DNA from: Acidimicrobiia bacterium
Lineage (GTDB): Bacteria; Actinomycetota; Acidimicrobiia; Acidimicrobiales; JAHEJN01
Direction: 5' to 3'
NCBI GenBank assembly: GCA_029861625.1
Contig: JAOTZB010000007.1
Location: forward strand, 1-33,356
Length of the DNA stretch: 33,356 bases
Under the pieces are notes generated by a model. That model worked only from the letters and a program-made list of their open reading frames with translations. It was not told the origin of the DNA and made no database searches. Position numbers and translations under genes: made by a program. Positions 13,082 through 28,604 of the stretch are shown here, piece after piece; position 1 is the first letter of the stretch; every line of letters begins with the position of its first letter.

Positions 13082-14662
13082 ATGACCGAGACAGCCGAAG
13101 AACATCAGCGACAGCACTATCCCGGGAGCCACGCCGCGTCCGAGCCCGACAAGGCCGCGGTGGTCATGGCACCCGGTGGTGAGATCGTCACCTACGCCGA
13201 GCTCGACGAGCTCGCGAATCGCCTCTCGCAGCTCCTGCGGACCGTCGGCCTCGAACGCGGCGACCACGTGGCGTTCTGCTTGGAGAACCGGGCCGAGTTC
13301 CTGCCCATCGCCTGGGGATGCCACTACGCCGGCGTGTACTACACGGCCATCAGCTCTCGGCTCACCTCCGAGGAGCTGTCCTACATCATCAACGACTGCG
13401 GCGCGAAGGCGTTCATCACCTCTCCCTCCAGGGCCGATGTCGTGGCAGAGATCGTCGACGACATCCCGGACGTGAAGCTGCGGCTGAGCGTCGGTGGCAT
13501 CGTCGACGGCTTCGAGTCGTTCGAGGACGCCATTGCCGCGTGTCCGGCCGAGCCGCTCGCCGACCGGCTCGAGTCCACCGACATGTTGTACAGCTCCGGC
13601 ACGACCGGCCGACCGAAGGGCGTGAAGGTCCCCATGCCGGACGCGCCGCTCGGCACGGCCAACCCGCTCCTCCAGCTCGCGTCCGCGCTCTTCGGCGTCG
13701 ACCACGACGCCGTGTACCTGTCACCGGCGCCCCTCTACCACTCGGCACCACTGCGATTCTGCATGGCCGTGCACCGGGTGGGCGGGACGGTCATCGCCAT
13801 GGAGCGCTTCGACCCCGAGCACGCGCTGCGTCTCATCGAGCAGTACCGGGTGACCACCAGCCAGTGGGTGCCGACGATGTTCGTGCGAATGCTCAAGCTG
13901 CCCGAGGGCACCAGGTCCCAGTACGACATCTCGAGCCTCCGGGTGGCGATCCACGCCGCCGCACCGTGCCCGGTCGCCGTCAAGGAGCAGATGATCGACT
14001 GGTGGGGCCCGGTGTTGCACGAGTACTACGCCGGTACCGAGGGCAACGGGTTCTGCTACACCGGCTCCGAGGACTGGCTGGCCCACAAGGGAACCGTCGG
14101 CAGACCGCTCATCGGCGAGCTGCACATCGTCGACGACCACGGCAACGAGGTCCCAGCCGGCACCGAGGGCACCATCTACTTCGGCGGTGGTGGTGGCTTC
14201 GAGTACCACAACGACGTTGAGAAGACGCACGGCTCCCGGCACCCGGCGGGGTGGTCGACACTGGGCGACGTCGGCAAGGTCGACGAGGACGGCTTCTTGT
14301 ACCTCACCGACCGCAAGGCCTACATGATCATCTCCGGCGGGGTGAACATCTATCCCCAGGAGACCGAGAACATCCTCACCATGCACCCCGACGTCTTCGA
14401 CGTCGCGGTGATCGGGGTTCCCAACGACGACTTCGGCGAGGAGGTCAAGGCCGTCGTGCAGCCGGTGACGATGCCGGCCGACGACGACGCGTCGGCCGCG
14501 CTCGAGCGAATCCTCATCGCGTACTGCCGCGACCACCTGGCCGACGTGAAGTGCCCCCGTTCCGTCGACTTCCGTCCCGAGCTGCCGCGCCATCCGACCG
14601 GCAAGCTGTACAAGCGCCTGTTGAAGGACGAGTACTGGTCCGGCCGCGAGACCCGGATCTGA
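13082..14662 (+). CDS. AMP-dependent acyl-CoA synthetase/ligase (FadD-like)
   Basis: MLYSSGTTGRPKGVKVPMPD (P-loop), YYAGTEGNGFCYTGSEDW, STLGDVGKVDEDGFLYLTDRKAYMIISGGVNIYPQETEN, C-terminal PTGKLYKRLLKDEYW. Confidence 0.94.
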   Translation: MTETAEEHQRQHYPGSHAASEPDKAAVVMAPGGEIVTYAELDELANRLSQLLRTVGLERGDHVAFCLENRAEFLPIAWGCHYAGVYYTAISSRLTSEELSYIINDCGAKAFITSPSRADVVAEIVDDIPDVKLRLSVGGIVDGFESFEDAIAACPAEPLADRLESTDMLYSSGTTGRPKGVKVPMPDAPLGTANPLLQLASALFGVDHDAVYLSPAPLYHSAPLRFCMAVHRVGGTVIAMERFDPEHALRLIEQYRVTTSQWVPTMFVRMLKLPEGTRSQYDISSLRVAIHAAAPCPVAVKEQMIDWWGPVLHEYYAGTEGNGFCYTGSEDWLAHKGTVGRPLIGELHIVDDHGNEVPAGTEGTIYFGGGGGFEYHNDVEKTHGSRHPAGWSTLGDVGKVDEDGFLYLTDRKAYMIISGGVNIYPQETENILTMHPDVFDVAVIGVPNDDFGEEVKAVVQPVTMPADDDASAALERILIAYCRDHLADVKCPRSVDFRPELPRHPTGKLYKRLLKDEYWSGRETRI

Positions 14663-14671
14663 GCCCGTCGG

Positions 14672-15391
14672 CTACGAGAGCAGCGCTCGGGCCCGGCGGA
14701 AGAACTCGACCACGGTGGCCACCGGGTCGTCGCCCGCGTCGATCTCACTGCGCGGCAGCACCGCACCCGTGTAACCCTCGGCCGACCAGAACGTATCCGT
14801 GACGGCGTCGCCGATACGGTCGGGCCACCACACGCTCACGTACGCGTACGGCTCATCGCTGCCACCGTCGCCAGGCGAGCCGCCGTAGGACGCCCGGTGG
14901 TCCTCGTCGCCGATCTCGATGGAGGGATCGAAGTGGCCCGGCCAGAGCTGCACCTCGCTCGGGTCGACCGACTCGGCGTCGGTGCGCACGATCTCGAGCG
15001 CCTCGGACGCGAGCTGCCACCACGATGCGAGGTAGGCGACCGCTTCGGCGTCGATACCGAGGTCTTCGTCGAGATCGCCCGCCGGTGGCGAGTCATGCTC
15101 GGCGGCCGTCTCGAGATCGACCTTCGATCCGATGAACTCGGCGGCGGCGTTCATCGAGGTGATGGGGGTGCGGCGCGACGACTCGCCTTCGTCGACGACG
15201 AGATCTGGGCCGTCGACGCGAACCCGAATGCCGTCGCCGAACACCGGCGTGCCGAACCCGCCGGGCGTGGCGCGCAGGCCGAATCGTCCCGTGACCTGGT
15301 GTCGTGCCGGCGCGACGACGTAGGTCGCGAACCGATGGAGCGCGACCCTGGTCGTGACGAGAGATGCCGGTGGTGTTCCGAGGGTGGGCAC
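14672..15391 (-). CDS. uncharacterised protein (239 aa), last gene of a putative four-gene operon
   Basis: GTG start at 15391 with upstream GGAG; begins 15 bp after the ThDP gene stop; protein MPTLGTPPASLVTTRVALHRFATYVVAPARHQVTGRFGLR..., no family recognised. Confidence 0.7.
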   Translation of the reverse strand: MPTLGTPPASLVTTRVALHRFATYVVAPARHQVTGRFGLRATPGGFGTPVFGDGIRVRVDGPDLVVDEGESSRRTPITSMNAAAEFIGSKVDLETAAEHDSPPAGDLDEDLGIDAEAVAYLASWWQLASEALEIVRTDAESVDPSEVQLWPGHFDPSIEIGDEDHRASYGGSPGDGGSDEPYAYVSVWWPDRIGDAVTDTFWSAEGYTGAVLPRSEIDAGDDPVATVVEFFRRARALLS

Positions 15392-15406
15392 AGGGAGCTC
15401 CTTCGC

Positions 15407-17350
15407 TCAGACGAGTTGGGCGTCAGCGAGCACTTCGACGAGGGCGGGACCCGTGTGGGCGAGTGCCTCCTGGAGCGCGCTGTCGAGATCGGAAACCCGA
15501 GCGACCTCGATCCCCTTCCCACCACAGAGCTCGGCGAAGCCGGCGAAGCTCGGATTGTGCAGCGAGGTCTGCCACACGTCGAGCTCTGCCCATCGTTGTT
15601 CCTTCGAGATCTTGCCGAGCTCACCGTTGGCGAGCAGCACCACGGTGAGGTCCATCCCGTACTTCACCGCCGTGGTGAAGTCCATCGCGTACTGGCCGAA
15701 TCCGCCGTCGCCGGCGACGGCGATCACCTGACGCTCGCCGCCCACCGCGGCCCATGCGCCCATGGCGGCCGGGAACCCGAACCCGATCGAGCCGAGATAA
15801 CCGGACATCAGCACCGACTGTCTGTCGACCTCGAAGTAGCGGCCGAAGGAGTAGGTGTTGTTGCCGACATCGACGGCGATGACGGCGTCGGGGTCGGCGG
15901 CGCGCGTCAGGGCGTCGAAGATGGCGGCCGAGCCGACTCCCTGGCCCCGATCGTCGGCGCGCCGGTTCTGCTTCTCGGTCCGCCACAAGGACCAGCGCTC
16001 GGCGACCTCGCCGATGTAGTCGTGGGCCTCGAAGTCGGCAGGCACGGCGTCGGCCAGCTGCCGAGCGGTGACGCCGACATGACCGAGCAGTGGCACCTCG
16101 ACCGGATGGAAACGACCGAGCGCCATCGGGTCGAAGTCGACCTGGATGATGGGTTTGTAGTCGGAGATGCCCGTGTGGTTCGAGAACGACGCGCCGAACA
16201 CGATCATCAGGTCGCACTCGTTCATGAACCAGCTCGCGATCGGCGTGCCGCTGCGACCGAGCACCCCGCACCCGAGCGGGTGGTGATCCGAGATCAGCCC
16301 CTTGCCCTTGAACGTCGTGGCGACGGGCGCACCGATTCGTTCGGCGAAGGCGCTGACGTCGTCCATGTCGAATCGGGACCCCGCGCCCACCACCACCATC
16401 GGGCGCTCGGCGGCGGCGATCTTGGCGACGGCGCGGTCCACCTCGGACTGCGGCGCGGCGATCCGTCGATCGCCGGATCGACCGTCGGGTACACCGGCCC
16501 GGGCATCGGGGGCGAGCTGTTCCTGGACCTCGTCGGGCAGCACCAGATGGGCGACGTTGCTCTCGACGACTGCCGTCTTGCAGGCGAGGGTCATGAGCTC
16601 GGCGTGGTTCGACCCGGACTGGACGGTCTCGCTGTAGCGGGTCACCTCGGCGAACGCTCCCTTCAGGTCGACGTCCTGGAACGCGCCCCGTCCTCGGACC
16701 TTCGACGGCACCTGTCCCGAGATCGCCAGCACGGGTGCGCGATCGACCTTCGCGTCGTACAGGCCGGTGAGCAGGTTCGTCGAACCCGGTCCGGCGATCC
16801 CGAAACACGCGGCCAGGCCACCGGTGAGCTTGCCGTACGCCGACGCGGCGAACGCGCCGGCGCCCTCGTGGCGGATCCCGATGTAGGTCAGCTCACCGCG
16901 GGACTCGGCCTTTCGCATCGCATCGGCGAAGCCGAGGTTCGAGTGGCCGACCATGCCGAACACGTGCGTGACGCCCCAGGCGATCATCGTCTCGACCAGG
17001 ACATCGCTGACCGTGCGGGCGTGGGGCTCGTCGCCAGGGAGCGCCACGTACACGCCGTCGGACCGCACTTCGGTGTCGAAACACGCAGGTGCGTCGTCGA
17101 ACGGGGGTGGCGGTGATCCCGTCAGCGGGTCGTAGTCGTAGCCGTGCCATGGACACCGCAACAGCCCTTTCTCGATGCTGCCCTCACCGAGCGGGCCACC
17201 CTGGTGCGGGCAGTGGTTGTCGAGCGCGCCGTACTGACCGTCGAAGTGGGTGATGGCGAGGCTCCGGCGCCCGACCGTGATCGTGGTGACCCGCCCCTCG
17301 GGGACCTCGTCGAGATCGACGACCTTGTGCCAGGTTGTGTCGTTGTCCAT
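15407..17350 (-). CDS. Rieske [2Fe-2S] - thiamine diphosphate-dependent enzyme fusion (acetolactate synthase/pyruvate oxidase superfamily)
   Basis: N-terminal Rieske motif CPHQGGPLGEGSIEKGLLRCPWHGYDY; then ThDP fold with catalytic Glu motif IRHEGAGAFAASAYGKLTG and ThDP/Mg motif GDGGFGQYAMDFTTAVKYGMDLTVVLLANGELGK. Confidence 0.9.
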   Translation of the reverse strand: MDNDTTWHKVVDLDEVPEGRVTTITVGRRSLAITHFDGQYGALDNHCPHQGGPLGEGSIEKGLLRCPWHGYDYDPLTGSPPPPFDDAPACFDTEVRSDGVYVALPGDEPHARTVSDVLVETMIAWGVTHVFGMVGHSNLGFADAMRKAESRGELTYIGIRHEGAGAFAASAYGKLTGGLAACFGIAGPGSTNLLTGLYDAKVDRAPVLAISGQVPSKVRGRGAFQDVDLKGAFAEVTRYSETVQSGSNHAELMTLACKTAVVESNVAHLVLPDEVQEQLAPDARAGVPDGRSGDRRIAAPQSEVDRAVAKIAAAERPMVVVGAGSRFDMDDVSAFAERIGAPVATTFKGKGLISDHHPLGCGVLGRSGTPIASWFMNECDLMIVFGASFSNHTGISDYKPIIQVDFDPMALGRFHPVEVPLLGHVGVTARQLADAVPADFEAHDYIGEVAERWSLWRTEKQNRRADDRGQGVGSAAIFDALTRAADPDAVIAVDVGNNTYSFGRYFEVDRQSVLMSGYLGSIGFGFPAAMGAWAAVGGERQVIAVAGDGGFGQYAMDFTTAVKYGMDLTVVLLANGELGKISKEQRWAELDVWQTSLHNPSFAGFAELCGGKGIEVARVSDLDSALQEALAHTGPALVEVLADAQLV

Positions 17351-17372
17351 CGACGGACCGTAGCTGACTGTT

Positions 17373-18059
17373 TCAGCCGCACACAGCGTCGACCTGCGCG
17401 CCGAAGACGACACCTTCGGGCGAGGAGAGGTTGAGGCTCGCGACCCATGTGTTGCCGCCCGTCGAGGTCTCGTTCAGATCGTCGCCGCCATTGAGGTTCG
17501 ACAACAGCACGTCGTCGCCGTTCAGGGCATCGGGTCCGCTGATGAACACGATGACGAAGTCGGGCTGGGTGCTGTCGTAGGTGCCCTCCATGGCGACCCC
17601 GACGTCGGACTCACCGGAGAAACGGAAGCTCCAGTCGTCGCCCGACTCCACGACCGTGCAGCCGACCGTGGCGTCGTACACACGGCCGTCGTCGAGGGCG
17701 ACGCTGACGGTGCCCGTGCTGGCGAAGCTGTCCGCGGCCGGCGGGGGCGGCGGCTCCGGGGTGGGCTCATCGGCGGCGACCTCGTCCTCGTCGGAGGACT
17801 CGGGATCGGTCGCAGCGTCGTCGGCCGGCTCGTCGCTCGAATCGTCCGGCTCCTCTGGTGTGGTGTCCTCGCTTGCATCGGCCGAGCTGTCCTCATCGGC
17901 ATCGGCATCGGCGGAGCCGGTCTCGGTCTCGGCGTCGGCCCCGTCGACCTCCACATCGCCGTCCGGGCTGTCGACCAGCTCGGGGCGGTCACCTCCCGAA
18001 CACGCAGCCGCCACCATGACGACCGCCAGAAGTGAGGCCAGGACCCTGGATCGAACCAT
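17373..18059 (-). CDS. acidic lipoprotein (unknown function)
   Basis: Signal with lipobox (LASLLAVVMVAAAC); long D/E/S/A-rich segment then globular C-terminal domain; start overlaps upstream stop (TGATG). Confidence 0.8.
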   Translation of the reverse strand: MVRSRVLASLLAVVMVAAACSGGDRPELVDSPDGDVEVDGADAETETGSADADADEDSSADASEDTTPEEPDDSSDEPADDAATDPESSDEDEVAADEPTPEPPPPPAADSFASTGTVSVALDDGRVYDATVGCTVVESGDDWSFRFSGESDVGVAMEGTYDSTQPDFVIVFISGPDALNGDDVLLSNLNGGDDLNETSTGGNTWVASLNLSSPEGVVFGAQVDAVCG

Positions 18060-19669
18060 CAGAGCTGTACTCCTCCATACGAGATTCCCGTGAGATGTGC
18101 GATCTCACGATCGAAGGTGGTCAGGTCGTCGGTGCAGAGCTCCCGGAGATGGGTGTGCCCGCACGCTCGGGCCAAGACCGCCATCAGAGCAACGCTAGCG
18201 GCGAAGAAGCGCTCCAACCGCGCGGCAGCCTCGTCGACGATGAGGCGGGCCCGCAGGTCATCCCGCTGCGTCGCGATGCCCACTGGGCAGTTGTTGGTCG
18301 AACATGCCCGCATCCCGAGACACCCGATGGCCTGCATCGCCGAGTTCGAGAGCGCGACTGCGTCGGCGCCGAGCGCCAGCGCCTTGGCGAAGTCGGTATG
18401 GGTGCGCAGTCCACCGGTGATCACCAGCGTGATGTCGCGGCGGCCACGCGCGTCGAGGTGGCGCCTCGCCCGTGCCAGCGCGGGCATGGTCGGCACCGAG
18501 ATGTGGTCGCGGAACACGATCGGCGCGGCTCCGGTCCCGCCGCCCCGACCGTCGAGGATCACGTAGTCGACGCCGACCCGAATGGCGGCGTCGAGGTCGT
18601 CCTCGATGTGTTGGGCCGACAACTTCGCGCCGATGGGGATACCGCCGGTCGCCTCGCGCACCTCGTCGGCGAAGGCCCGATAGTGGTCCTCGCAGTCGAA
18701 GTCGGCGAACGTCGATGGTGAGATCGCGTCGGTGCCGGGTTCGAGGCCGCGAACCTCGGCGATCCTGCCCGTGACCTTCCTCCCGGGAAGATGTCCACCC
18801 GTGCCGGTCTTGGCGCCCTGGCCGAACTTGAAGTGGAAGGCCTGCGTCTTCGCCACCTTGTCCATCGAGAACCCGAAACGCCCCGACGCGAGCTCGTAGA
18901 AGTAGCGGGAGTTGGCAGCCTGTTCCTCGGGCAACATGCCGCCTTCGCCCGAACAGATACCGGTGCCTGCGAGCTCGGCCCCCTTCGCCAACGCGATCTT
19001 CGCCTCCGCCGACAGCGCGCCGAAGCTCATGTCGGACACGAACATCGGCAGGTCGAGCTCGAGCGGGCGGGCCGCGTTGGGTCCGATCACGACCTCGGTT
19101 CCGACCGGGGCATCGTCGAGCTGGGGCTTGCGCGCCAGCTGCGCCGTGACGAACTGGACGTCGTCCCATTTCGGCAACAGATCCCGGCTGACGCCCATCG
19201 AGCCGACCGGCCCGTGATGTCCCAGGTAGTCCAGCCCCTCGTTCCCCAACTGGCGGATGAGCGCGACATGGGGCTCCTCGGGTGTGCCGTGGGGGTCCTG
19301 ATAGGCCCCCTGGTAACTCTCGCGATCGAAGGGCTGGGGGTGTTCCTTCTCCCATGCCAGCACCTCCTCGGCATCGATCATGAGGTCGTCGGCGTCGAGC
19401 CAGGAGGCGAACCGGTGCAGTCGCTCGGCGTTGTCGTACGCGCTGACGCCCGTGTGGAACACGTAGTCCCACCCGTGGACGCCGCAGATGATGTTGTCGC
19501 CGTCGATCCGGCCGTCGGCCATGTGGGCCCCGCGATGCAGGCACCGGCCGTAGAGGACCGAATGGTTGTCGTCAGCTCGAACGATGACGAGGTCGACGTT
19601 GCCGACGAGCACACCGACCGGTTCACGGTCGGCCACGTCGCTCCATGTTGCGATCTTCAAGGGTTGCAC
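18059..19669 (-). CDS. Rieske [2Fe-2S] - FMN-binding glutamate synthase family fusion
   Basis: N-terminal Rieske CLHRGAHM...CGVHGWDY; GltS FMN domain DMSFGALSAEAKIALAKGAELAGTGICSGEGGMLPEE...LDGRGGGTGAAP; 3Fe-4S type CLGMRACSTNNCPVGIATQ. Confidence 0.9.
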   Translation of the reverse strand: MQPLKIATWSDVADREPVGVLVGNVDLVIVRADDNHSVLYGRCLHRGAHMADGRIDGDNIICGVHGWDYVFHTGVSAYDNAERLHRFASWLDADDLMIDAEEVLAWEKEHPQPFDRESYQGAYQDPHGTPEEPHVALIRQLGNEGLDYLGHHGPVGSMGVSRDLLPKWDDVQFVTAQLARKPQLDDAPVGTEVVIGPNAARPLELDLPMFVSDMSFGALSAEAKIALAKGAELAGTGICSGEGGMLPEEQAANSRYFYELASGRFGFSMDKVAKTQAFHFKFGQGAKTGTGGHLPGRKVTGRIAEVRGLEPGTDAISPSTFADFDCEDHYRAFADEVREATGGIPIGAKLSAQHIEDDLDAAIRVGVDYVILDGRGGGTGAAPIVFRDHISVPTMPALARARRHLDARGRRDITLVITGGLRTHTDFAKALALGADAVALSNSAMQAIGCLGMRACSTNNCPVGIATQRDDLRARLIVDEAAARLERFFAASVALMAVLARACGHTHLRELCTDDLTTFDREIAHLTGISYGGVQL

Positions 19670-19743: not shown

Positions 19744-21045
19744 ATGCAGGACATCGCGCTGCTCGCGGCCCTGATCGGCGGCTATGGCCTGGTGTCGGAA
19801 CGACTCGCCAAGTTTTGGATCACAGCCCCCATGGCATTCGTCGCGGGCGGCATCGCTTTCGGCGACGCCGGCCTCGCCGTCTTCGATCTCGATATCGAGA
19901 ACGAGTCGGTCGCACTGCTCGCCGAGGCGACGCTGGTGCTCGTGTTGTTCGCCGATGCGACACGCATCGACGTCATGCGCCTGCGATCCGGATACCGGCT
20001 CCCGGCCCGCTTGTTGTTGATCGGGTTCCCGCTCACGGTGCTGGCGGGCCTCGGCCTCGCGTGGCTGGTGTTGGACTCGTTGAGCTGGCAGGAGGCGGGC
20101 CTGGTCGCCGCCGTGCTGGCACCGACCGACGCCGCGCTCGGCGCAGCCGTGGTCAACGACGAGCGTCTGCCCGTGAGGATCCGGCAGGGTCTGAACGTCG
20201 AGAGCGGCCTCAACGACGGCCTCGCGGTCCCGGTCGTCACCGTGTTCCTGGCCCTCGTCGTCGCCGAGGAGACCGGTGGAGGCCAGACCGACTGGGTCGA
20301 GTTCGTTGCCGAACAGATCGGGTACGGGACCCTCATCGGCGTGAGTGTGGGCTGCGTGGGCGGCATCTCGTTGCGATGGGCCGACAGCAGGGGCTGGGTC
20401 GAAGGTGTGTACCGGCAGCTGAGCACGCTGTCCATTGCTGTCGGCGCGTTCGCTCTCGCAGGAACGATCGACGGCAACGGCTTCGTTGCCGCCTTCACCG
20501 CCGGGCTGGCCTTCAGCCAGGTCGCCCGCGAGCTGTGCGGCGGGGTCCAGGACTTCACGATCGACGAGGGCGAGCTGCTTGCCGGGCTCACCTTCATCGT
20601 GTTCGGCGCCGTGCTCGGCGGACCTGCGATCAACGAGCTCACGTGGCAGATCGCGCTCTACGTCGTGCTGTCCCTCACCGTCGTGCGCATGGTGCCGGTG
20701 GCGGTGTCGATGATCGGCGCGGGCACGCGTCGTGAGACGGTCTTGTTCCTCGGCTGGTTCGGGCCGAGGGGTCTCGCATCCATCGTCTTCGGTCTCTTGG
20801 TGCTCGAGGAGACCGACAGCAGCTCCACGCGACTGATGTTCGTCGTCGTGGCATGGACCGTGCTCGTGAGTGTGATCGCCCACGGCATCTCGGCGGCGCC
20901 GTGGAGTGGTCGGCTCGCAGCCGAGCTCGATACGGCCGCGCAGGACGATCCGTCGATGCCCGAGCACGTCTCAGTGGCCGAAATGCCCCTTCGCGGGGGC
21001 GGAATGAGCCGATTGCCCCATGTTCGGCACCGACGCGATGGGTAA
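19744..21045 (+). CDS. Na+/H+ antiporter, CPA1/NhaP-like
   Basis: ATG at 19744; LVAAVLAPTDAALGAAVVNDERLPVRIRQGLNVESGLNDGLAVPVVTVFLAL, multiple TM segments, FLGWFGPRGLASIVFGLLVLEE. Confidence 0.92.
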   Translation: MQDIALLAALIGGYGLVSERLAKFWITAPMAFVAGGIAFGDAGLAVFDLDIENESVALLAEATLVLVLFADATRIDVMRLRSGYRLPARLLLIGFPLTVLAGLGLAWLVLDSLSWQEAGLVAAVLAPTDAALGAAVVNDERLPVRIRQGLNVESGLNDGLAVPVVTVFLALVVAEETGGGQTDWVEFVAEQIGYGTLIGVSVGCVGGISLRWADSRGWVEGVYRQLSTLSIAVGAFALAGTIDGNGFVAAFTAGLAFSQVARELCGGVQDFTIDEGELLAGLTFIVFGAVLGGPAINELTWQIALYVVLSLTVVRMVPVAVSMIGAGTRRETVLFLGWFGPRGLASIVFGLLVLEETDSSSTRLMFVVVAWTVLVSVIAHGISAAPWSGRLAAELDTAAQDDPSMPEHVSVAEMPLRGGGMSRLPHVRHRRDG

Positions 21046-21327: not shown

Positions 21328-22272
21328 CTACCCCTTGACGTACCGCTCGGCGAGGTCGCCGAGAACCGCCAGACACTCCTCGGCGCAGTTCCGCAGGATG
21401 TCGGCCACCGGCTCCACCCGATCGATCCGCCCGCAGACCTGACCCGACAGCGCGATGGCGGCCTCCATGTCACCGCCGAAGTAGAGATCGACCGCGGATC
21501 CGAACTCACCGAATGCGTTCTTCTCGGTGTCGAACTCGAGCGCGGTCGTGCGCTCGGTCCTGAGCGCCCGGAGCGCCGGTGACGCATGGCGGTTCAAGAA
21601 CACGGTGTCGGTCTCGCCCGCATCGATGATCGCCTGTTTCCAGTTGTCGTGCACCGGCGACTCGGCCGCCGACACCATGCGAGTGCCGAGCTGAACGCCC
21701 TCGGCACCGAGCGCGAACGCCGCGGCCATCGTGGGACCGTCGACCATGCCACCGGCTGCGATGATCGGGACGTCGACCTTGGAGCGGATGAGCGGCAGGA
21801 GCACCATCGATGCGACCGGTTGCGGGTTCTTGAACCCACCGCCCTCGCCGCCCTCGACGACAAGGCCGTCGACGCCCGCATCGACCGCCTTGATGGCCCC
21901 CCGCAACGTCGGGACCACGTGGAAGACGGTGAGCCCGGCCGCCTTCAACGGCTCGGTGTACTTCGTCGGGCTACCGGCCGATGTGGTCACGAACTTCACG
22001 CCCTGGTCGACCACGAACTCGACGATCTCCGGATCGCGGACGAATGCCTGGGCAATGTTGACGCCGAACGGCTTGTCGGTGAGATCTCGCATCCTCCGGA
22101 TCTCGTCGCGGATCACGTCGAGCTCACCGGAGCTCGTCTCGATTATCCCGAGGCCTCCGGCCTCCGACACCGCCGACGCGAGCCGGGATCGTGCGATCCA
22201 GCCCATCGGCGCCTGCACGATGGGGAGCTCGACGCCGAGCATGCGGGTGACACGGTTGTCGAAGGCGCTCAT
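21328..22272 (-). CDS. nitronate monooxygenase (2-nitropropane dioxygenase family)
   Basis: MLGVELPIVQAPMGWIARSRLASAVSEAGGLGIIETSS...VVEGGEGGGF...VPIIAAGGMVDGPTMAAAFALGAEGVQLGTRMVSAAESPVHDNWKQAI. Confidence 0.92.
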   Translation of the reverse strand: MSAFDNRVTRMLGVELPIVQAPMGWIARSRLASAVSEAGGLGIIETSSGELDVIRDEIRRMRDLTDKPFGVNIAQAFVRDPEIVEFVVDQGVKFVTTSAGSPTKYTEPLKAAGLTVFHVVPTLRGAIKAVDAGVDGLVVEGGEGGGFKNPQPVASMVLLPLIRSKVDVPIIAAGGMVDGPTMAAAFALGAEGVQLGTRMVSAAESPVHDNWKQAIIDAGETDTVFLNRHASPALRALRTERTTALEFDTEKNAFGEFGSAVDLYFGGDMEAAIALSGQVCGRIDRVEPVADILRNCAEECLAVLGDLAERYVKG

Positions 22273-24308
22273 CCCGGCACCGGACAGACGTCGACCACGT
22301 TGTCGTGGAAGATCGCGCCGGCGCCCATGTCAGCGTCGCGTTCGAGCACCGTCGCGTTCGGGTTCGCTCCACCGTTGTGGCGGGGCCAACCACCCTTGGT
22401 CGACACGGCCACGCCGGGCCGGGCCCGGTCGTCGACGCGCAGCGCGGCCTGGAACGATCCCCGGCTGTTGTGCACCTCGACGACATCGTTCTCCCGAAGT
22501 CCACGCGCCGCTGCGTCGGTCGGGTTCAGAACCACCGCCGGTTCGCCTGATCGGTCGCGATGGGTCGTGCTGTTGGCGAACACCGAGTTCAAGAAGTAGT
22601 GATCAGCGGCCGCCACGAGCTGGAGACCGCCATCGGCCGGCGACTCGGCCGGACCGACCGGATGGGGCAGTCGGCCGTGGCCATCGGCCTCGGCCCGTTC
22701 GGAAACGAGCTCGAATCGGCCCGAGGGTGTGGGGAAGCGGTCGAGGAACGGCTGATAGGGAGACGGAACGTCGAGCCGGGCCCAGCCCGCCCGTGCCAAC
22801 ACGTCGTACCCACCGGACACGCTCGTGCCGAGCGCGTCGCGAGCCAGTTGTTCGTCGCTCGCATGGACCGCCGGGTGGTCGATGCCGAGTCGTGTTGCCA
22901 GCCGTCGGAACATCTCGGTGTGCGGCAGGCACTCACCCGGCGGCGCAGATACCGGCACGTTCAGCTGCACGTAGAGATGACTGTAGGAGTCGTGCAGATC
23001 GAGATGTTCGGTCTGCATCGTGGCGGGCAGCAACAGGTCGGCATAGTCAGCGGTGTCGGTCCGGAAGTGGTCGATCACGACGGTGTGCAGGTCGTTGCGG
23101 GAGAGACCGCGGCGAATGCGGTTCTGGTCGGGGTTGGACGCGACCGGGTTGGAGGCGTAGATCGCGAGACAGGTGACGGGCGGGTCGTCGAGCTCGAGCA
23201 GACCGTGCCCGAGCCGGGTCATTGCCAGCGATCGACGGGGACCGGGAGCGAGGTCGGGACGATTGAGCGCGACGGAGTCGAACGCATATGCCGGGCTGGT
23301 CGAGTAGCAGGCTCCCCCGCCGAGGCGGTCGTAGTCGCCGGTGATCGCAGGGATGCACGAGATGACCCGGGCCGCCTGCCCGCCTCCGAGGTGGCGCTGC
23401 ATCCCCATCGACAGCTTGATGCCCGTCGGCCGAGCCGACGCGAGGCGTTCGCCGAGAGCTTCGATCTGCTCGCGGGGTACGCCACACTGCCCGGCCGCCC
23501 ATTCGGGGGTGTAGCGCTCCAGGGATGCCTCGAACTCGGGCCAGCCGAGGGTGCGTTGCTCCAGGTAGGCGAGGTCGTGTGCTCCCCGCGCCACGACGAC
23601 GTGCATCAACGCCAGCGCCAGGGCGGCGTCGGTCCCCGGTAGCAGGGCAACGTGTTCATCGGCTCGCTCGGCCGTGCGGGTCCGGGTGGGGTCGATGACG
23701 ACGACCCACGCTCCGTTGCGTCGGGCCTCGGCGATGAACGGCCAGAGATGCTGGTTCGACGTCAGCGTGTTGGAACCCCACAGCAGGATCAGGGACGAAT
23801 GCCGCAGATCCTGCGGATCCATGCCGCCGGCCGAACCGGTGGTGTAGCTCATGCCGACGTGGCCGGCGACCGAGCAGATGTTCGCGTGGTGCTTCGAGGC
23901 GCCCAGGACGTTGAACAGACGATTACCCGCGCCTGGCGTGCCCTGCACGTAGCCGACGGTGCCCGTGCCGGCGTAGGGCCAGATCGACTCGGCGCCGTGC
24001 TCGTCGATCGAGGACTGCAACCGCGCCGCCCACTCGTCGAGGGCGTCGTCCCAGCCGATCCGCTCGAATCGCCCCTCACCCTTGGCGCCGACGCGTCGCA
24101 TCGGATACAGCAGGCGGTCGGGGTGCCGGGTGTGCTCGAGGTAGGAGTTGACCTTCACGCACAGGCTGCCGCGTGTGAACGGGTGGGCTCTGTTGGCACG
24201 CAGCTTCACGGGCGTCGCACCATCGACGGTGACGATCCAGCTACAACCGTCGGGGCAATCGAGCGGGCAACCACCGACGATCTCGTGGGTTCCGCTCGGC
24301 GCCGTCAT
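22269..24308 (-). CDS. bis-MGD molybdopterin oxidoreductase (DMSO reductase superfamily)
   Basis: [4Fe-4S] motif CPLDCPDGCSW...GSLCVK; NICSVAGHVGMSYTTGSAGGMDPQDLRHSSLILLWGSNTLTSNQHLWPFI; C-terminal molydop-binding domain VVLNPTDAAARGLRENDVVEVHNSRG. Confidence 0.93.
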   Translation of the reverse strand: MTAPSGTHEIVGGCPLDCPDGCSWIVTVDGATPVKLRANRAHPFTRGSLCVKVNSYLEHTRHPDRLLYPMRRVGAKGEGRFERIGWDDALDEWAARLQSSIDEHGAESIWPYAGTGTVGYVQGTPGAGNRLFNVLGASKHHANICSVAGHVGMSYTTGSAGGMDPQDLRHSSLILLWGSNTLTSNQHLWPFIAEARRNGAWVVVIDPTRTRTAERADEHVALLPGTDAALALALMHVVVARGAHDLAYLEQRTLGWPEFEASLERYTPEWAAGQCGVPREQIEALGERLASARPTGIKLSMGMQRHLGGGQAARVISCIPAITGDYDRLGGGACYSTSPAYAFDSVALNRPDLAPGPRRSLAMTRLGHGLLELDDPPVTCLAIYASNPVASNPDQNRIRRGLSRNDLHTVVIDHFRTDTADYADLLLPATMQTEHLDLHDSYSHLYVQLNVPVSAPPGECLPHTEMFRRLATRLGIDHPAVHASDEQLARDALGTSVSGGYDVLARAGWARLDVPSPYQPFLDRFPTPSGRFELVSERAEADGHGRLPHPVGPAESPADGGLQLVAAADHYFLNSVFANSTTHRDRSGEPAVVLNPTDAAARGLRENDVVEVHNSRGSFQAALRVDDRARPGVAVSTKGGWPRHNGGANPNATVLERDADMGAGAIFHDNVVDVCPVPG

Positions 24309-27422: not shown

Positions 27423-28604
27423 CTATCGCCTGGGGGCGTCGAGGGCGGCCAGGGCTTTCCGCCAGTCGGGCGGGTCGACGGTCGCCTCGATGCCGGCGAG
27501 GAAACCCGACTCGGCCAGCTGGTGGCACAACGACAACAGGTCGCCTCGGATCTCTTCCGCTCCCGCGTCGAAGTGGCCGGCCAGCTCGTCGGCCAGCTCG
27601 CCGATCGACGTGTGACCGTCGAGGATCGGCCACACGGCCACACCGATCCGATCGAGGAGGAGCGCCCGGCCCGTCGCGGGGTCGTACAAGACGCCCCCGT
27701 CGGGGAAGGCGATGCCGACGACACCGTCGCGATGTTCTGCCGACGACGAGGCGTCGGTCGAGACGGTCGCCGGCCTCCCCGACGGCCCGTGGGCAGCCAG
27801 CGGCACGACCTCGACCGGATCGACCGCATCGTGCAGAAGGCCCGACACGAGCGGCACGACGGCGTCAGCCTCGTCATAGGTGGCCATGGCGCAATGGCAC
27901 TGCGACACCAGCCGCGCCAGCAGCTCGACCCCGCCCGGCCCGAACCGGCCGAGATCGAAGGTGTTGAGCAGCAGCCGCAGCACGCTCTCGGGCCGGGAGA
28001 TGGCATCCAGCGAGGGCTCCGCGCCCTGAAGGCGGCGGGCGAACACCACTGCGCACGCCGAGGAGGTTGTTCGGACTCCGCCGTCACCGAGCGCTCCGGC
28101 GGGCACGTACCAGCGAGCCTCGGTCCCGTCACCCATGGAGCAGGGCCGGAGATCCACGTGATGGCCCAGCAGGTCGCGGCCGCCGGCCTTGACCGTCAAT
28201 CCCTTCGGGTACCCCAGGAGCGTCAGGTCGACCGGTTCGACACCGATCATCTCGTCGGACATGTACGCGAGCCCGGCGCCGACCAGTGCCGCACACAGCG
28301 TCGTCTTGCCGGCTCCACTGACGCCGGGTAGCAGCAGCGCATTCCCCGTCGCGTCGGCGACGGCAGCAGCGTGCAGGTTGAGGGTGTCCGGTGATGTGTC
28401 GAGCACGCCCTGGTTGATGGCGCCGACCAGATGATCGACCGCCGACCCGACTCGGGTGAAGCGTTGGACCCGCTCGTCGTTGACCAACAGCTCGGCCCCG
28501 GCGCGGTCTCCACGGAGCTCGTAGCTGATTTCGGACCCGACGTCGGCGCGGTCGACGGCCAGGTCGGCGAGCGCCAGTTCGAGCCGGCTCACGAGCTCGG
28601 GCAT
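27423..28604 (-). CDS. HPr kinase-like ATPase / PqqD (RiPP recognition element-type) fusion protein
   Basis: LNLHAAAVADATGNALLLPGVSGAGKTTLCAALVGAGLAYMSDEM (HprK-like P-loop); C-terminal GVLYDPATGRALLLDRIGVAVWPILDGHTSIGELADELAGHFDAGAEEIRGDLLSLCHQLAESGFL (PqqD-like). Confidence 0.82.
   Translation of the reverse strand: MPELVSRLELALADLAVDRADVGSEISYELRGDRAGAELLVNDERVQRFTRVGSAVDHLVGAINQGVLDTSPDTLNLHAAAVADATGNALLLPGVSGAGKTTLCAALVGAGLAYMSDEMIGVEPVDLTLLGYPKGLTVKAGGRDLLGHHVDLRPCSMGDGTEARWYVPAGALGDGGVRTTSSACAVVFARRLQGAEPSLDAISRPESVLRLLLNTFDLGRFGPGGVELLARLVSQCHCAMATYDEADAVVPLVSGLLHDAVDPVEVVPLAAHGPSGRPATVSTDASSSAEHRDGVVGIAFPDGGVLYDPATGRALLLDRIGVAVWPILDGHTSIGELADELAGHFDAGAEEIRGDLLSLCHQLAESGFLAGIEATVDPPDWRKALAALDAPRR

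Follow-up and report, generated by a model that had tools for sequence, protein, structure and literature searches.

We consider, at a probability of roughly 55%, that the window (the whole stretch of DNA analyzed, 33,356 nt) carries one copy of a mobile redox module of bacteria and haloarchaea, the core of which is formed by a Rieske-ThDP and a Rieske-GltS fusion enzyme that would exchange electrons via their Rieske domains. The module is real and widespread, and its domain make-up, the conservation of its ligands, its linkage across phyla, and the co-occurrence of its genes are established. As far as the open-access literature shows, it is also undescribed; our search of that literature, which has most subscription journals outside it, returned no paper on Rieske-ThDP, Rieske-GltS, or DUF5996. 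Each enzyme is a variant of a known family; what may be new is the module as a system.

The four minus-strand open reading frames of the original prediction were confirmed at their coordinates, and the gene starts that we chose match the family starts. The divergent antiporter gene, which that prediction had missed, belongs to the gene set as well. The features are as follows:

18059..19669, minus strand: Rieske-GltS(FMN) fusion, 536 aa (Pfam)
17373..18059, minus strand: acidic lipoprotein between the two enzymes (lipobox)
15407..17350, minus strand: Rieske-ThDP fusion of the pyruvate-oxidase family, 647 aa (Pfam and NCBIfam)
14672..15391, minus strand: DUF5996-like protein, accessory module member, 239 aa (profile comparison)
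19744..21045, plus strand: cation:proton antiporter of the Na_H_Exchanger family, divergent (Pfam)

The source of the window is a draft genome of 489 contigs. Most of the nearest named matches to the window's ThDP gene are MAGs of Acidimicrobiia. The acyl-CoA synthetase gene downstream (13082-14662) was rejected as an extension of the operon, given its location on the other strand. A reading of the locus as a defense system was likewise rejected, since PADLOC gave no match to anti-phage defense models for any module protein. Elsewhere in the window, two minus-strand genes share a 4-bp overlap and are probably a separate operon (21328-24308); one encodes a nitronate-monooxygenase-like FMN protein (21328-22272) and the other a molybdopterin oxidoreductase with a 4Fe4S domain (22269-24308). 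The product of another minus-strand gene (27423-28604) combines a PqqD domain with a P-loop-like region, as is found near peptide-modification gene clusters.

The two Rieske fusion enzymes

In the Rieske-ThDP protein, a Rieske domain (Pfam, residues 6-79, E = 1e-15) precedes the ThDP enzyme part, which spans residues about 112-645 and matches the N, M, and C families of Pfam TPP_enzyme, each at E = 1e-31 or better. No NCBIfam equivalog cut-off was reached; the best model was pyruvate oxidase, and acetolactate synthase models matched too. The best relatives in the PDB are E. coli PoxB and the pyruvate oxidase of L. plantarum. Across 50 orthologs with a mean column identity of 70%, the Rieske ligands C47/H49/C66/H69 (CxH...CxxH), the catalytic Glu (E162), and the Mg ligands D548 and N575 are invariant. 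Equivalents of the pyruvate oxidase residues F121, Q122, R264, V394, and E483 are also kept, the last of these as E584. In contrast, the active-site Phe of pyruvate oxidase (F479/F465) is replaced with an invariant Lys (K580), suggesting that the substrates or the chemistry are probably unlike those of the model enzymes. The protein ends ~5 residues past the end of the PoxB match (PoxB residue 527 of 572), and sequence comparison showed that it is without the C-terminal lipid-binding tail, which in PoxB serves lipid docking and activation (PMC7245740).

The Rieske-GltS protein likewise begins with a Rieske domain (Pfam, residues 5-75, E = 3.6e-13), followed by a Glu_synthase domain (Pfam, residues 194-504, E = 7e-90), and the nearest solved structure is the FMN domain of glutamate synthase. 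Its 36 orthologs, drawn from several phyla, have a mean column identity of 74% and share invariant Rieske ligands (C43/H45/C62/H65, again CxH...CxxH) and invariant [3Fe-4S] cysteines (C450, C456, and C461). In glutamate synthase, K972, Q978, and R992 form what we take to be the 2-oxoglutarate site. Rieske-GltS retains Lys and Arg at the K972 and R992 positions, while it has an invariant His (H293) at that of Q978, and this replacement, too, suggests that the substrates or the chemistry probably differ from those of the model enzyme. Rieske-GltS is not a glutamine-dependent glutamate synthase.

Rieske proteins of the bc1 type have a high potential and an extra disulfide cysteine pair. We found no further conserved Cys in the Rieske domain of either fusion, and the absence of this pair makes it likely, as judged from sequence, that both domains are of the low-potential ferredoxin/oxygenase type. 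Because the cluster ligands and ThDP residues are invariant across phyla, the fusions are working genes and not chance products. The conserved ligands and active-site residues also lend support to the original prediction that the Rieske domains may act as electron relays.

Linkage of the fusions and their accessory genes

For 80 Rieske-ThDP loci of other genomes, genes were predicted from codon usage and clustered by sequence; 57 of these loci were well flanked, having 3 kb or more of DNA to either side. A Rieske-GltS gene was found within 3 kb of the Rieske-ThDP gene in 31 of the 57 well-flanked loci, from several phyla, a gene for a ferric-reductase-Rieske membrane protein in 18 (in 2 of them fused to an OB-fold protein), an antiporter gene in 13, and a DUF5996-type gene also in 13. 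At least one of these four was present within that distance in 44/57 loci and none in 13/57. Where a GltS gene is a neighbor (38 loci), it lies on the same strand in 31 and, in 29 of those 31, upstream. These GltS-bearing loci are labeled Actinomycetota, Acidobacteriota, Verrucomicrobia, Alpha-, Gamma-, and Deltaproteobacteria, and Bacteroidota, although single MAG labels may err. The idea of a system, which the original prediction had made dependent on co-occurrence of the two fusions, thus held: they are neighbors across bacterial phyla and on haloarchaeal plasmids.

Whole-genome searches gave a consistent picture. Full Rieske-GltS was detected in 37 of 50 Rieske-ThDP genomes; 2 others have a CDGSH-type match and 1 has a shortened GltS, which brings the total to 40/50. 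Among 297 Actinomycetota genomes, 9 have one fusion, 7 have the other, and 5 have both (hypergeometric p = 1.4e-7, or 3.3e-6 when the window's genome is left out), p-values that genome relatedness makes optimistic; some of these co-occurrences are at distant positions (G282 and G165). Within the window's own order (59 genomes), a close Rieske-ThDP ortholog is present in 13 genomes and full Rieske-GltS in 6. The pair occurs together in 4, of which 3 are without the lipoprotein and have their matched stretches separated by 11 to 63 bp. The distance matrices of the two fusion proteins are correlated (r = 0.87, 0/2000 permutations), with a contribution from shared host ancestry. Direct coupling is not obligatory, since Rieske-ThDP was found without Rieske-GltS (G018, G028, G030, and G056) and Rieske-GltS without Rieske-ThDP (G025, G043, G219, and G111). 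Named carriers of the module include Acanthopleuribacter pedis KCTC 12899 (L071), Aliikangiella coralliicola M105 (L118), and Halorarius halobius ZY10 (L225).

Among 72,556 plasmids, Rieske-ThDP was found on five, at 58-60% identity: those of Haloferax larsenii, Halorubrum salinarum, Halorarius halobius, Salinirubellus, and Mycobacteroides abscessus 50594. Full Rieske-GltS was found on three plasmids of this collection, all of which belong to these five. In Halorarius, a sodium:proton antiporter gene comes 43 bp after the ThDP gene, and Rieske-GltS lies 4 kb further on. The haloarchaeal plasmid copies are located near merA, arsenic-resistance, DsrE, and peroxiredoxin genes. Because haloarchaea carry the module on plasmids, it is mobile and spans both bacteria and archaea. 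Large plasmids of Vibrio, Photobacterium, and Pseudoalteromonas (H9-H12) gave matches to the GltS domain only, from residue 129 or 135, and Rieske-ThDP was absent from the same plasmid.

The three other genes of the window's set differ in how they relate to the core. The lipoprotein, which has a VAAAC lipobox signal and whose gene overlaps the preceding Rieske-GltS gene by 1 base, gave no Pfam match even at E = 1 and no homolog in any other fetched locus, and other copies of the module have the two enzymes directly adjacent. It was rejected as a module member on account of this absence and is probably a local insertion into the operon. Thus, of the four-gene unit originally proposed, both fusions and the DUF5996-like gene were retained, and the lipoprotein was not.

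The protein encoded at 14672..15391 had been described as unknown, and indeed it has no Pfam match, scoring below the gathering threshold of PF19459 (DUF5996). A relative at another locus does match PF19459, however, and the window's protein aligned with DUF5996 proteins encoded beside other Rieske-ThDP genes at an hhalign probability of 99%. In gammaproteobacteria, the genes for those proteins sit between both enzymes, and the motif WPxHFD...GD...EPYxYV is common to them and the window's protein. On this profile comparison, we assign the gene as a distant relative of DUF5996. It is also a genuine part of the module. Homologs were detected in 11/13 Rieske-ThDP genomes of the order versus 5/46 others (Fisher p = 1e-6). 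An AlphaFold2 model of the protein (pLDDT 93.8, pTM 0.90) was compared with the PDB by fold search, which gave no match below E = 0.001; the best, at E = 0.05, was not usable.

The antiporter gene starts with an ATG at 19744 behind GGAGG, and its product matches Pfam Na_H_Exchanger (E = 1e-34, run on 19756-21045) and falls into the same sequence cluster as antiporters encoded beside Rieske-ThDP or Rieske-GltS in other phyla. It adjoins the module in G057 and G043, the latter having the DUF5996-like gene, the antiporter, and Rieske-GltS in a row, and other antiporter subgroups stand in at L084/L107, L065, and Halorarius. Its co-occurrence within the order is weak (p = 0.02), and it is absent from many loci.

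Variants in other lineages

The ferric-reductase-Rieske membrane protein of other lineages consists of a Ferric_reduct domain and a C-terminal Rieske domain, the best match of which, in the genomes searched, is the Rieske domain of Rieske-ThDP. In those lineages, this membrane cytochrome is a candidate for the electron partner of Rieske-ThDP, to which it is well linked. Three unrelated enzymes thus carry one kind of [2Fe-2S] domain, for which a plug-in electron port is the best reading. In 50 genomes, close DUF5996 homologs occur in 13 and the ferric-reductase-Rieske protein in 32, with both in only 1 (p = 1.7e-6); the 13 genomes were picked post hoc at a score cut-off near 1e-57, and a loose cut-off gives an overlap of 12 (p = 8e-4). 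This near-exclusion suggests that the module exists in two versions. The membrane partner was not found in the window's genome, and its presence in the window's order was rejected, as the searches gave Rieske-domain matches only, save for one weak transmembrane match in G018.

The neighbor of the ferric-reductase-Rieske gene encodes a membrane-anchored OB-fold protein with the invariant motif KC..G.M.P.....H..CA..C..GG (L091:10163-10936 and 15 relatives); in L096 and L103, the two are fused. The one representative tested is without a Pfam family and has a predicted fold of pLDDT 89; searches with the OB-fold protein of these other loci gave generic OB-fold matches only. At four clustered loci (L037, L064, L147, and L154), the GltS protein carries CDGSH domains in place of the Rieske domain, and in G093 and G099 the GltS match covers the same part of the protein as in this CDGSH form (residue 127 on). 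The [2Fe-2S] domain has thus been swapped from Rieske to CDGSH within one module. Proteins that combine tandem CDGSH domains with a GltS FMN domain are known as type 5 CISD (PMC3174974, PMC5859297). Several proteobacterial loci have ECF sigma factor and zf-HC2 anti-sigma factor genes beside the module (L079:10841-11784, L089:3305-3895, L114:3328-3927, L124:7009-7599, and L134:7599-7871), and these possibly provide dedicated regulation.

Proposed mechanism, alternatives, and known systems

In the mechanism that we propose, the core would be two soluble enzymes, each with an extra N-terminal [2Fe-2S] Rieske domain of the putative low-potential type. Rieske-ThDP would decarboxylate a 2-oxoacid on ThDP and then reduce its putative FAD, and single electrons would leave via the fused Rieske domain instead of by PoxB-like docking to the membrane. 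The GltS-type FMN/[3Fe-4S] enzyme would exchange electrons via its own Rieske (or CDGSH) cluster and interconvert an amino- or imino-acid-like substrate. In the window's lineage, the DUF5996-like protein and the cation:proton antiporter would complete the set; in many other lineages, the membrane Rieske-ferric-reductase cytochrome and its OB-fold partner would replace the DUF5996 protein. Here we infer the FAD content, the cluster potentials, the direction of electron flow, the substrates, and direct transfer between the enzymes. Because each fusion is alone in several genomes, there are two good options: the closed circuit of two enzymes in the original prediction, and a shared acceptor that both enzymes serve. 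We also suggest, tentatively, that the module constitutes a new energy-conserving or metabolic pathway of bacteria and haloarchaea, in which three unrelated enzymes (the ThDP oxidase, the FMN-GltS enzyme, and the membrane cytochrome) would exchange electrons through their plug-in [2Fe-2S] domains and would in some way be coupled to cation:proton antiport and to DUF5996.

The shared acceptor leads to an alternative that we regard as possible but doubtful, namely that a 2-oxoacid dehydrogenase and an amino-acid-like dehydrogenase are parallel, uncoupled sources that feed a quinone, cytochrome, or reductase and never each other. The genomes with only one of the fusions are in keeping with it, as are four loci (L081, L097, L101, and L121) at which the ferric-reductase-Rieske gene adjoins Rieske-ThDP and the genome is without a Rieske-GltS match; however, the fusions are strongly adjacent and have similar trees, and the search of the window's genome gave no acceptor that both could share. 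Rieske and CDGSH clusters are both histidine-ligated and pH-dependent, and they could instead be mainly sensors or switches that tune metabolism with cation:proton antiport, in a stress-regulated device responding to ions or redox state. Such a device would account for the antiporters of one Pfam family but clearly different subgroups that adjoin the module (c3, c10, L065/Mycobacteroides plasmid, and Halorarius), for the sigma and zinc-finger anti-sigma genes in several loci, and for the merA, arsenic-resistance, DsrE, and peroxiredoxin genes near the haloarchaeal copies. We nevertheless consider it unlikely, given that the invariant catalytic residues in both enzymes argue for catalysis, many loci have no antiporter, and the antiporter is weakly associated within the order.

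Joint transfer on islands or plasmids without joint function would explain the patchy distribution and the plasmid copies, but it is quite unlikely in view of co-occurrence even where the genes are far apart (G282 and G165) and in 40/50 genomes including the CDGSH and shortened forms, and of the same unusual [2Fe-2S] addition on three unrelated enzymes. It is very unlikely that the ThDP protein is an acetohydroxyacid-synthase-like carboligase with a structural or regulatory Rieske domain: although acetolactate synthase models match it, pyruvate oxidases are its best sequence matches, it has Glu at the E483 position (E584) and keeps the R264 and Q122 equivalents, and its Rieske ligands are invariant.

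If the reading as a Rieske-coupled redox module is true, it establishes a new link between 2-oxoacid oxidation and amino-acid-type flavin chemistry via fused Rieske relays. It would also give the first functional context for two orphan groups, DUF5996 and the type 5 CDGSH-GltS proteins, for which we know of no established function. The presence of the module in A. pedis, A. coralliicola, and H. halobius makes it testable in these named strains.

Compared with known systems, Rieske-ThDP is of the same ThDP-enzyme family as PoxB, CidC, PQO, and L. plantarum pyruvate oxidase and keeps the ThDP/Mg residues. It differs from all of these in its N-terminal Rieske domain and in the Lys at the position where, in pyruvate oxidases, a Phe aids electron transfer from ThDP to FAD, and it is without the C-terminal lipid-binding tail of the quinone-linked members (PoxB, CidC, and PQO). 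Rieske-GltS shares with the large chain of glutamate synthase the FMN-domain family, the three cluster cysteines, and the K972/R992 equivalents, but it is without the N-terminal glutaminase and the C-terminal domain, adds a Rieske domain, and has the invariant His for Gln978. Type 5 CISD proteins, the GltS part of which is 64-67% identical to that of Rieske-GltS, carry CDGSH clusters where Rieske-GltS has a Rieske, and they take its place either next to Rieske-ThDP or within one genome with it (L064, L147, G093, and G099). The membrane partner, which lies outside the window, has the Ferric_reduct and Rieske domains in common with MsrQ/YedZ and Rieske-bearing ferric reductase domain proteins, the latter architecture having been noted earlier (PMC3591440). 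Unlike MsrQ/YedZ, however, it is linked to Rieske-ThDP and to the OB-fold Cys/His protein, and not to the molybdoenzyme MsrP.
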